Origin: Rathayibacter rathayi
GTDB taxonomy: Bacteria > Actinomycetota > Actinomycetes > Actinomycetales > Microbacteriaceae
Reading direction: 5' to 3'
Assembly (NCBI RefSeq): GCF_004011095.1
Contig: NZ_CP028129.1
Span: forward strand, 2,108,001-2,172,000
DNA: 64,000 nt
The translations under genes and the position numbers were made by a program. Below are positions 11,528-52,267 of the stretch, piece by piece (within the stretch, counting starts at the first letter, position 1; each line of letters begins with the position of its first letter). The notes beneath the pieces are model-generated. The model saw nothing but the letters and a program-made list of their open reading frames with translations. It did not search any database and was not told where the DNA came from.

Positions 11528-11543
11528 ATGTGATCGCTCACAT
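11528..11543 (+). promoter_or_regulatory. LacI-family operator
   Basis: ATGTGATCGCTCACAT consists of 6-bp perfect arms ATGTGA/TCACAT around TCGC. Its core, TGTGATCGCTCACA, differs from the symmetric lac operator (TGTGAGCGCTCACA) at one position. The neighbouring repressor carries a LacI-like recognition helix. Confidence 0.75.
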
Positions 11544-11613
11544 AGCATCACAGCTCCGCCCCGATTCCGAGGGCGACCCTGCATCCACTGCATTCAATGA
11601 CGAAGGAATCACA

Positions 11614-12744
11614 GTGACCACAATGAAGCGCGCTCTCATCGCCGGCATCGCCGGTGGAGCGATGATCCTCTCCCTCGCCGCCTGCTCCTCCGGAACCGGT
11701 GGCGGCTCGGGCTCAGGATCCGGCGACGGCGGCCTCGTCGGCGTCGCAATGCCGACCAAGTCGTCCGAGCGCTGGATCGCTGACGGCAACAACGTCAAGT
11801 CGCAGCTCGAGGGGGCCGGCTACCAGGTCGACCTGCAGTACGCCGAGGACGACATCCCCACCCAGGTCTCGCAGCTCGAGAACATGATCACCAAGGGCGC
11901 CAAGGCCTTGATCGTCGCCTCGATCGACGGCACCACCCTCACGAGCGTGCTCGAGGAGGCCAAGGCCAACGACATCCCCGTCATCGCCTACGACCGCCTC
12001 ATCCGCAACTCCGAGAACGTGGACTACTACGCCACCTTCGACAACTACAAGGTGGGTGTCCAGCAGGCCACTTCGCTCCTCGCGGGCCTCGGTCTGACCG
12101 ACCTTACCGGCGCGAAGGCCGCCAGCGCCCCTGCTGGCCCCTTCAACGTCGAGCTGTTCGCCGGTAGCCCCGACGACAACAACGCGACGTTCTTCTTCAA
12201 CGGCGCGATGGACACTCTGAAGCCGTATATCGACGACAAGACCCTCGTGGTCAAGTCTGGCGAGACCGACTTCAACACCGTCGCCACGCTCCGCTGGGAC
12301 GGCGAGGTCGCCCAGAGCCGTATGGAGGACATCCTCACCAAGACGTACTCCGACGGCTCGAAGGTCCAGGGTATTCTCTCGCCCTACGACGGCCTCAGCC
12401 GCGGCATCATCTCGGCTCTGACCGACGCCGGCTACACCGTCGGCTCCGATTTCCCGATCATCACCGGTCAGGATGCCGAGCTCGACTCCGTCAAGGCGAT
12501 CATCGCCGGTGAGCAGTACGCCACCATTTATAAGGACACCCGCGAGCTCGCCAAGGAGGCCGTGAAGATGGCCCAGGCCGTCCTCGAGGGCACCGAGCCT
12601 GAGGTCAACGACACCGAGACCTACGACAACGGCAAGAAGGTCGTCCCGTCCTTCCTGCTCGACCCGGTCATCGTCACCAAGGACCAGATCCAGTCGGTCC
12701 TCGTCGACGGCGGCTACTACACGGATGCGGAAGTCAACGGCTGA
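11614..12744 (+). CDS. chvE: ChvE-type sugar ABC transporter substrate-binding lipoprotein
   Basis: 376 residues. A lipoprotein signal runs to LSLAAC, Cys24 being the lipidated residue. The mature part opens [40 protein letters not shown] and contains [34 protein letters not shown] and [14 protein letters not shown], which are typical of the ChvE/multiple-monosaccharide-binding group. It captures sugars outside the membrane for GguA/GguB. The GTG at 11614 has GAAGGA six bases upstream. The ATG at 11623 is the alternative. A structured repeat follows 6 bp after the stop and separates this gene from the ATPase gene. Confidence 0.92.
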
Positions 12745-12750
12745 TCCGAA

Positions 12751-12850
12751 CGCGGCCCTCAGCGGGGCGATCTGCGGCGTTGTCGTCGGTCGCGATACCT
12801 CCGGTATCGCTCCCTTCTCCGCCTTGCAGCTCACCCCGCTGAGAACCGCG
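12751..12850 (+). repeat. Dispersed nested-hairpin element, copy 1
   Basis: Outer arms pair as CGCGG (12751) with CCGCG (12846), then 12758-12775 with 12826-12843. Within them lie the invariant GCGGCGTTGTCGTC (from 12774) and CTCCGCCTTGC (from 12818). The inner stem GCGATACC-TCC-GGTATCGC is at 12792-12810. It lies between the binding-protein gene and the ATPase gene, as REP elements do between malE and malF in enterobacteria. See copies 2 and 3. Confidence 0.85.
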
Positions 12851-32508: not shown

Positions 32509-32549
32509 CCCACCACCCCTCTCCTCTGCCCTCTGCCTACTCCCCGTCC

Positions 32550-32655
32550 CCTCTGGGGCGTCTGCGTGGTGAGCTGCAAGGCGGAGGAAGAAGCCGTAGC
32601 GGCGCTACGGCGCCTGACGACAACGCCGCAGATCGCCGCGCAGACGCTTCAGAGG
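32550..32655 (-). repeat. Dispersed nested-hairpin element, copy 2
   Basis: Outer arms are CCTCTG-gg-GCGTCTGCG (32550-32566) and CGCAGACGC-tt-CAGAGG (32639-32655), followed by the same internal pairing as copy 1. On the nrd mRNA strand it reads GCGGCGTTGTCGTC, then the inner stem (arms 32593-32600 and 32604-32611), then CTCCGCCTTGC. The nrdH stop codon lies inside the outer arm. It fills the nrdH-nrdI gap. Confidence 0.88.
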
Positions 32656-32867
32656 GTCGCAATCTTGTCGGGGCGGAAGCCGGACCAGTGATCATCGTCC
32701 GTGATGACGACCGGCGCCTGAAGGTAGCCGAGGGCCTTCACGGCCTCGAGGGCCTTCTCGTTGACCGAGAGGTCGAAGACCTCGTAGTCGATGCCCTTGC
32801 TGTCGAGGGCGCGGTACGTCGCCGTGCACTGGACGCAGGAGGGCTTGGTGTAGACCGTCACAGCCAT
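32649..32867 (-). CDS. nrdH: Glutaredoxin-like NrdH
   Basis: 72 residues, MAVTVYTKPSCVQCTATYRALDSKGIDYEVFDLS. It has the redox centre C-V-Q-C, the cis-Pro region APVVITDDDHWSGFRPDKI and the typical NrdH length. It supplies electrons to NrdE and is itself reduced by thioredoxin reductase. It is the first gene of the operon, downstream of the NrdR-like boxes. Confidence 0.96.
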   Translation of the reverse strand: MAVTVYTKPSCVQCTATYRALDSKGIDYEVFDLSVNEKALEAVKALGYLQAPVVITDDDHWSGFRPDKIATL

Positions 32868-51181: not shown

Positions 51182-51288
51182 GCTGACGGCCCGCGGGGGT
51201 GTCGTGGGCAAGGCGGAGGAGGAGAGCTGTAGCGGAGCTACCGCCGACGACGACAACGCCGCCCACGGCACCCCCGCGGGCCGTCAGC
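51182..51288 (-). repeat. Dispersed nested-hairpin element, copy 3
   Basis: The outer arms at 51182-51209 and 51261-51288 pair over 28 bp with a single G-U wobble. On the mRNA strand the invariant GCGGCGTTGTCGTC and CTCCGCCTTGC flank the inner stem GCGGTAGC-TCC-GCTACAGC. The permease stop codon (51284-51286) is in the outer arm. Confidence 0.88.
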
Positions 51289-52267
51289 CTTTGGTGGCGC
51301 CGGCGAGGAGGCCGCGGACGAAGAACCTCTGGAGAGAGAAGAACACGATGAGCGGCACAATGATCGAGATGAACGCCCCGGCAGTCAGCAGTTCCCACGA
51401 CTGGCCGTAGGAGCCGGTGAGGTCTTGCAGCGCCTTCGTAATCGGCAATCCCTGTCCGGAGGTGAAGACTGTCGCGACCAGCAGGTCGTTCCAGACCCAG
51501 AGGAACTGGAAGATCCCGAAGGAGGCGATCGCGGGAACAGCGAGCGGGAGGACGATGCGGAAGAAGATCTGGCCGTGGCCTGCGCCGTCCACGCGGGCCG
51601 CTTCGATCACTTCGCCCGGGATCTCGGAAATAAAGTTGTGGAGCATAAAGATCGCGAGCGGGAGGGCGAAGATCGTGTGCGCGATCCACACCTTGGCATA
51701 GGAGCCGTCCAACCCGTTCACTCCGAGGCCAGGAAGGATGTAGAGCCCGCCGATGCGCAGGCCGTCCGAGAACAGCTGGAGCAGCGGCACGAGTGCCATC
51801 TGAATCGGCACGATCTGGAGCGAGAACACGAGCACGAAGAGCGTGTTGCGGCCCTTGAAGTCGATCCACGCGAAGGCGTAAGCAGCGAGGCTGGCGATCG
51901 TGATGGGGATCAGTGCCGCCGGCAGTGTGATGACGAGCGAGTTCACGAATGCTTTGCCCAGCGTCAGGCTGTCGCCGGAGTTGAGCGCGTTCGCGTAGTT
52001 GTCGAGCGTGAAGCCGGGGTTGGCGAAGATCGTCCACCAGCCGGTCGTCTTGATGTCGTTCGCGGGGCGGAACGACGAGATGAACAGACCGAGGGTCGGG
52101 ACAGTCCAGATGACGGCGATGATCAGTGCGGCGAGCGTGGCTCCGCGGGAGGTCGTCGCCTTCTTGACCTTGCCGCTGGCCGCCTCGATTCGCGATTCGC
52201 CGCGCGCGAGCGCGCGTTCCGTGGTGCGGTCGACCGGGACCTGAATCGGAGTGGGCGTGACGCTCAT
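51284..52267 (-). CDS. Alpha-glucoside-type ABC permease (MalG/AglG-like)
   Basis: 327 residues with six helices after a polar N-terminus. The EAA loop is EIPGEVIEAARVDGAGHGQIFFRIVLPLAVPAI, the contact with the ATPase, and LPITKALQDLTGSYGQSWELLTAGAFISIIVP is typical of the MalG/AglG group. It starts in a 4-bp overlap (ATGA) with the upstream permease. No dedicated ATPase is present in the operon, so a shared MsiK-like ATPase encoded elsewhere is expected. Confidence 0.92.
   Translation of the reverse strand: MSVTPTPIQVPVDRTTERALARGESRIEAASGKVKKATTSRGATLAALIIAVIWTVPTLGLFISSFRPANDIKTTGWWTIFANPGFTLDNYANALNSGDSLTLGKAFVNSLVITLPAALIPITIASLAAYAFAWIDFKGRNTLFVLVFSLQIVPIQMALVPLLQLFSDGLRIGGLYILPGLGVNGLDGSYAKVWIAHTIFALPLAIFMLHNFISEIPGEVIEAARVDGAGHGQIFFRIVLPLAVPAIASFGIFQFLWVWNDLLVATVFTSGQGLPITKALQDLTGSYGQSWELLTAGAFISIIVPLIVFFSLQRFFVRGLLAGATKG

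Follow-up and report, generated by a model that had tools for sequence, protein, structure and literature searches.

The stretch of DNA analysed here, the window, covers 64,000 nucleotides (64 kb) of the Rathayibacter rathayi genome. It holds three complete copies of a long hairpin, each at the end of a gene. Sense strand refers below to the mRNA strand of the adjacent gene and complement to the strand opposite; model R2 is an RNA covariance model of the complement. The features are as follows.

11530..12744, plus strand: host gene of copy 1, an ABC-transporter sugar-binding protein look-alike (translation read without database search)
12751..12850: copy 1, complete hairpin starting 7 bases past the TGA (12742-12744) of ORF 11530-12744 (both strands folded, stop codon checked)
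12756..12846, minus strand: copy 1, match to model R2, 97.3 bits
12776..12787, plus strand: copy 1, 5' conserved box GGCGTTGTCGTC; its complement GACGACAACGCC would be the bulged strand of a putative kink-turn
12817..12827, plus strand: copy 1, 3' conserved box CTCCGCCTTGC; complement GCAAGGCGGAG
32549..32656: copy 2, complete hairpin between nrdH and nrdI (fold and translations)
32557..32647, plus strand: copy 2, match to model R2, 95.3 bits
32649..32867, minus strand: host gene of copy 2, an nrdH-like redoxin (translation; matched in 15 of 15 genomes of the genus)
51182..51288: copy 3, complete hairpin (fold)
51189..51280, plus strand: copy 3, match to model R2, 77.0 bits
51284..52267, minus strand: host gene of copy 3, an ABC-transporter permease look-alike (translation read without database search)

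In the folded structures the stop codon of nrdH (32649-32651) falls within the outer stem of copy 2, and the stop codon 51284-51286 of ORF 51284-52267 within that of copy 3. Copies 1 and 2 are flanked by genes of the same direction. The initial annotation had described two conserved boxes at all three loci, and both were recovered as exact matches on the strands it named: GGCGTTGTCGTC at 12776-12787 (plus), 32616-32627 (minus) and 51249-51260 (minus), and CTCCGCCTTGC at 12817-12827 (plus), 32576-32586 (minus) and 51208-51218 (minus). When one mismatch is allowed, GGCGTTGTCGTC has six matches in the window against 0.90 expected, a number equalled in none of 100 shuffles. The second box is not rare by itself (five matches versus 2.98 expected, equalled by 18 of 100 shuffles). 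In copy 1, AGA stands beside the box complement GCAAGGCGGAG, where GGA is usual. The inner stem changes between the three loci in the way that had been described, and the outer stems are indeed self-complementary and unrelated in sequence from one locus to another. On the sense strand copies 1, 2 and 3 each fold into one long hairpin (-61.3, -66.1 and -82.4 kcal/mol), and none of 200 shuffles was as good. The complement folds more strongly in all three cases (-74.6, -80.4 and -89.3 kcal/mol).

The exact two-box pattern occurs eight times in this 3.10-Mb genome, three of them in the window. A covariance model finds 12 matches in the same genome at E <=1e-4, including some decayed tandem copies and one doubtful match. 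All 15 genomes of the genus carry the pattern (121 matches), and it was found in 17 of 398 genomes and 5 of 85 genera of the family; a reversed-pattern control gave none among the matches listed. At least 119 stretches with the exact pattern were obtained from a scan of named genomes. Among the matches listed are Streptomyces, Nocardioides, Pseudonocardia, Micromonospora, Kribbella, Gordonia and other Actinobacteria, Lachnospiraceae and other Clostridia, and one Byssovorax MAG; one Chloroflexi match among those listed resembles coding sequence. Model R2, which was trained on many of them, backs 118 of the 119 loci L049-L167, and the exception (L104) resembles coding sequence. A model search free of the exact boxes found the hairpin in 8 of 249 genomes of the phylum of Anaerobium, the centre genome included, and GGCGGAGGA and GACGACAACGC are both exact in 12 of the 20 copies fetched from it. 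In Actinobacteriota 19 of 246 genomes matched at E <=1e-4, five of which are weak matches judged by eye to be coding chance (L285, L287, L290, L292, L293). The hairpin family is present in at least two phyla. A divergent set in deep-branching Actinobacteria (L282, L284, L297 and related loci) has the form GCAAGGCGCGAGGAG ... GACGAGCAACGCCGC; several of its members lie inside elements with CTAGTGC-type ends, and the set is probably a sister family.

For the analysis of covariation, 179 collected copies were reduced to 95 non-redundant ones, and 16 with damaged, foreign or oddly spaced arms were dropped by eye to give alignments of 79 rows. Nearly all aligned copies had been collected by the exact pattern, so that the pattern bases were unable to vary and the invariance of the boxes is partly circular. 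In the sense-strand alignment (A1) 85.4% of the cells are paired and 22 of 27 pairs show double-sided changes; the covariation score is 0.490 versus 0.146 when shuffled and at most 0.096 when slid. The complement alignment (A2) reaches 89.6% paired cells, double-sided changes in 26 of 32 pairs, and a score of 0.614 versus 0.187 shuffled and at most 0.133 slid. The pair sets of the two structures differ, and because each structure was derived from the alignment on which it is scored, the slid control favours both of them. The central claim of the initial annotation, that the element is dispersed and structured, with loops that stay fixed and stems that covary, stands far above chance both in the covariation of the 79 copies and in the shuffled folds. 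A large body of homologues with stems that do not covary, which had been named as grounds for giving up the claim, did not emerge, as the 79 aligned copies covary.

The same annotation had placed the selection on the mRNA strand of the adjacent gene, and here the evidence does not support it. Lower-stem non-Watson-Crick pairs flanked by Watson-Crick pairs were counted in 83 non-redundant copies of the 179. On the sense strand they comprise 111 C·A, 15 G·T, 100 Y·Y and 51 R·R mismatches. The C·A excess means that the complement holds G·U wobbles, and the Y·Y mismatches become purine-purine there; this, together with the better folding of the complement, speaks against selection on the sense strand. 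The C·A to G·T counts are 63/8 in Rathayibacter, 21/7 in other Microbacteriaceae, 19/3 in the Streptomyces group and 29/3 in other Actinobacteria, with few counts in Firmicutes (2/0) and Gordonia (3/1), and the direction is the same in every group tested. When the conserved-mismatch positions are left out, the bias in the four larger groups is weaker and of the same direction (25/7, 10/3, 9/3 and 19/3, in the same order). The excess of Y·Y over R·R is missing in the Streptomyces group (31 vs 27), which in the mismatch and orientation counts includes a few unassigned loci. Copies found by model give a weaker ratio on the complement (G·U 85 vs C·A 50) in an alignment fitted to that model, and covariance models of the two strands nearly tie on the window copies (94.4, 90.5 and 75.1 bits for the sense strand vs 97.3, 95.3 and 77.0 bits for the complement). 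The hairpin family has a pairing preference for the complement strand. Counts of G·U versus C·A can reveal a structure that has been read on the wrong strand.

The conserved loops also speak against the mRNA-strand reading, for they make RNA motifs (a candidate kink-turn and G·A pairs) on the complement only. The complement loop strands GGA and GACGAC match the kink-turn signature of the Kt-7 type consensus, a signature of sequence and not of structure. The kink-turn-type GA/GA arrangement is found in 77 of 79 copies and A·A in the other two, an invariance that is partly by construction because the search pattern included the GAC-GA strand. Of the 79 copies, 25 have G·A and 23 have A·G as the fifth lower-stem pair on the complement; on the sense strand the mismatches at this pair are Y·Y in 37 of 52. 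The eighth pair is U·G in 35 of 79, the inner stem carries tandem G·A in 34 of 79, and the apical loop opens with GG (76 and 74 of 79). Kink-turn RNAs likewise have a three-base bulge followed by tandem G·A between two stems; they differ from the present case, in which there is a sequence signature alone and it lies inside a mobile palindrome. The complement may be made as RNA and may form a kink-turn.

Under the interpretation of the initial annotation, the hairpin would be a cis-acting 3' UTR RNA of the upstream gene, the sense transcript of which folds and stabilises, processes or terminates the mRNA. The hairpins sit directly past stop codons with strict orientation in Rathayibacter, the sense strand folds well too, and the genes on either side of copies 1 and 2 are co-directional, all of which would be expected of such an RNA. 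However, its stems would hold C·A and not G·U, its loops form motifs only when read as the complement, copy 1 has no T-run, and copies of the Streptomyces group face the neighbouring stop equally often either way (18 vs 18). We therefore regard it as quite unlikely. Intrinsic terminators resemble the element in that a strong hairpin with compensatory arms lies directly past stop codons; unlike them, it has a sequence-invariant core, a fixed strand asymmetry and no T-run at copy 1, the only copy scanned. In this simple scan of the copy 1 region neither a sigma-70-type promoter nor a T-run terminator was found. An integron attC site, considered because the fold strand is antisense to the gene, was set aside since the conserved part of the hairpin is apical.

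In other clades the same core lies inside palindromes of 165-204 bp that are bounded by CTAG (Streptomyces, Gordonia, Anaerobium). DNA-level mobility, which the initial annotation had named as grounds for giving up its claim, is in part observed: in these three clades the core lies within CTAG-ended miniature transposons. In Streptomyces the hairpin is often the middle part of palindromes that open with TAGGGCCTCTC or TAGGGCCTGTC and close with the complement. The Gordonia genome G407 has five near-identical copies, with both CTAG ends found for four of them (167 bp), and one insertion sequence of 1129 bp whose ends are of the same kind and whose DDE_3/helix-turn-helix transposase we take to be of the IS630 type. 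Ends common to the short element and a DDE_3 insertion sequence were demonstrated for this genome only, and the core strings, which were looked for in the 1129-bp insertion sequence, are absent from it. The Anaerobium elements have a third kind of CTAG end. The combination of a CTAG target and several near-identical dispersed copies is seen in Gordonia (five copies), Anaerobium and Streptomyces; such ends and copy numbers suggest that a transposase may move the elements in trans. The TAG of the target often doubles as a gene stop codon, and among the Streptomyces-group copies at such stops 18 are sense-side and 18 antisense-side, which indicates insertion without orientation. Shortened derivatives that have lost the core also exist. 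The idea that the core was inserted into the loop of a pre-existing palindrome was rejected, as the conserved mismatches run on into the arms and the core-less Streptomyces elements resemble deletion derivatives.

A typed query of the Streptomyces-type element matched 43 plasmid records, all of them from Streptomyces. Zero matches were obtained for window copy 3 against plasmids, for window copy 1 and a Streptomyces copy against phages, and for the divergent variant against either. There were two pattern matches on viral contigs, of which L219 fits the model and L218 does not. The former, an IMG/VR contig, carries at 692-780 a copy with TA-ended inverted repeats, which suggests that the element is able to ride a phage or prophage.

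Mobility raises the question of whether the palindrome acts as DNA. It could be a miniature transposon in which the arms are matched by template switching and the core is recognised as single-stranded DNA by a DNA-binding or hairpin-cutting protein. The element is mobile DNA in three clades, and a single-stranded DNA hairpin, too, would tolerate G·T better than C·A. Template switching is reported to create and maintain stems (PMC8794818), and it could be the source of part of the arm covariation. Yet the process should erase conserved mismatches such as the fifth pair (Y·Y in 37/52), and it does not predict the conservation of the core at immobile copies. In addition, the transposase survey of Rathayibacter, which covered DDE_3 and Y1 domains, found Y1/RAYT (PF01797) in none of the 15 genus genomes (5 of 14 control genomes were positive) and DDE_3 (PF13358) in none of the 15; the absence of Y1 goes against a DNA-level role. 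We consider this reading unlikely. No CTAG-type ends were seen by eye on the three window copies.

The Rathayibacter copies differ from the mobile ones in their placement. Among the 121 exact-pattern matches, 65 distinct copies were examined, some from named same-species records. Fifty begin 10-39 nt past the stop codon of a co-oriented gene and five are second tandem copies at 105-116 nt; the other ten lack a gene call, among them at least one (the first copy in L015) that is away from any recognisable gene end. The 55 placed copies belong to 19 host genes, grouped by eye from C-terminal residues, and none is in the opposite orientation. Since the arms are palindromic, the stop codon itself would not explain the orientation. 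Short copies are found 12-32 nt past a stop codon in other Actinobacteria too (10 of 25). One convergent intergenic region carries a copy in two species, at the end of one gene in the first species and of the facing gene in the second; in each case the copy is oriented by the gene it follows, and the two are independent insertions.

Nine of 15 species carry the nrdH-nrdI copy. Filled nrdH genes end in ...ATL, ...ASL or ...SAL, and empty ones are longer by one or two residues. In the gene tree eight filled genomes cluster together and the ninth (G013) is among close empty relatives, which fits recombination, gain or loss. The mean pairwise difference of the nine copies is 0.016 for the 27 core bases, 0.101 for the rest of the inner hairpin and 0.230 for the arms, versus 0.147 for third codon positions of nrdH. 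The core is held and the arms outpace silent sites, changing mostly in pairs.

Oriented insertion at gene ends is expected from coding-strand priming and could point to a SINE-like element, an RNA copied into gene 3' ends by reverse transcriptase; one RVT_1 gene is present in 12 of the 15 genus genomes. This proposal is barely credible, because the genome of the window has 12 model matches yet zero RVT_1 matches, the reverse transcriptases resemble ordinary retrons, and an R2 scan around four of them gave a single real element, beyond the next gene, in G012. A retron origin (msr-msd), which the reverse transcriptase near that element had prompted, was dropped on the same grounds, the want of RVT_1 in the window's own genome and the outcome of the R2 scan. 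The four Rathayibacter loci are L352:2637-4646, L353:3278-4675, L354:3488-4858 and L355:3410-4861, and two of them have upstream inverted repeats about 126 nt apart. The reverse-transcriptase genes carry retron-like motifs. They are probably a vertically kept retron that is absent from the genome of the window.

Membership in the CGTC-tagged REP superfamily (Di Nocera et al.) was also weighed. CGTC directly precedes the inner hairpin on the sense strand, and these repeats are described as palindromes mostly downstream of genes for which no dedicated transposase is known (PMC3733652, in the parts cited here). The same parts give them a length of 20-40 bp, AT pairs at the start of the stem and CCA-type tails, and report them from five phyla, Actinobacteria and Firmicutes not among them (PMC3733652). 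In contrast, the present element is a conserved structure of about 90 nt in Actinobacteria and Clostridia, which lacks the AT stem start and the CCA tail and is followed by TCC, and we find its assignment to this superfamily very improbable.

The nearest known kinds are these CGTC-tagged REPs and the IS630-driven MITEs such as RUP of Streptococcus pneumoniae. As far as the cited passages describe them, the latter are similarly short and non-autonomous, have ends in common with an IS630-type insertion sequence and TA or CTAG targets, and reach many near-identical copies in some genomes (PMC2229807). Unlike them, the present element is conserved across genera and phyla in its inside and not in its ends, shows strong strand-biased covariation, and includes copies oriented at gene ends in a genus that lacks the transposase. 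Rfam gave no match at the gathering score in the window, in agreement with the initial annotation; at E <=1 the only three matches from five loci are to a miRNA-like palindrome in another part of L052, and none is relevant. Nothing related by title was found in the literature for the core sequence strings. The element is undescribed in the open-licence literature searched on MITEs, IS630 and Streptomyces, Rathayibacter palindromes, kink-turn transposable elements, CTAG and Microbacteriaceae repeats, and the main text of a survey of bacterial stem-loop families makes no mention of Streptomyces (PMC2267715).

We lean, with a confidence somewhat above even, to a non-autonomous mobile palindrome that carries a conserved antisense-strand hairpin RNA and is kept at Rathayibacter gene ends; the confidence goes no higher because ten of the 65 copies still lack a gene call on recounting and because the Y·Y result is mixed. 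The window hairpins would be resident copies of a MITE-like, non-autonomous mobile palindrome of Actinobacteria and Clostridia. Its conserved unit would be a hairpin of RNA type, antisense to the preceding gene and composed of a long stem that often has a G·A mismatch, an AA bulge, the GGCG/CGCC stem, the kink-turn signature (GGA/GACGAC), a variable inner stem and a loop starting with GG. In Streptomyces, Gordonia and Anaerobium this unit would be the interior of 165-204-bp elements with IS630-type ends at CTAG, served by a transposase in trans. The Rathayibacter copies would be old, in one orientation at gene 3' ends, with the core kept and the arms co-changing, probably as marks of a transcript boundary. 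Only RNA that enters the gene 3' end from downstream would contain the structured strand; such incoming RNA may be paused, terminated or processed at the hairpin, perhaps with a kink-turn protein bound. This action at transcript boundaries is an inference, and two observations weigh against it: copies 1 and 2 lie between co-directional genes and so have no obvious antisense source, and copy 1 has no promoter-like or terminator-like site.

A broader proposal, which we put forward as tentative and on balance doubtful, is a mobile noncoding RNA class: a kink-turn hairpin RNA inside miniature transposons with interchangeable ends, conserved in Actinobacteria, Clostridia and perhaps further, which at Rathayibacter gene 3' ends (whether targeted or selected) would lie antisense and act against incoming antisense transcription. 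To our knowledge miniature transposons have conserved ends and a degenerate inside. An inside that is conserved across phyla, covarying and strand-favouring suggests that the cargo itself has a function. If that function is indeed one of RNA, the dispersed repeat would become a new family of structured RNAs and would offer a natural test of how a selfish element becomes a host gene-end signal.

Three further observations concern copy number and decay. Genome G858, from the set centred on G406, has 17 model matches, several of which begin at base 1 of a contig; the repeat is probably in high copy number there and causes the assembly to break at the hairpin. In the genome of the window, the model scores positions 2659045-2659121 (L306) weakly, at 34.3 bits; clear palindromic arms are absent, and the match is either the remnant of a copy or accidental. 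Positions 663771-664281 of the same genome (L305) hold a tandem array of five copies spaced by about 105 bp, of which one is nearly intact and the other four are decayed, with many changes of the G-to-A/C-to-T type.
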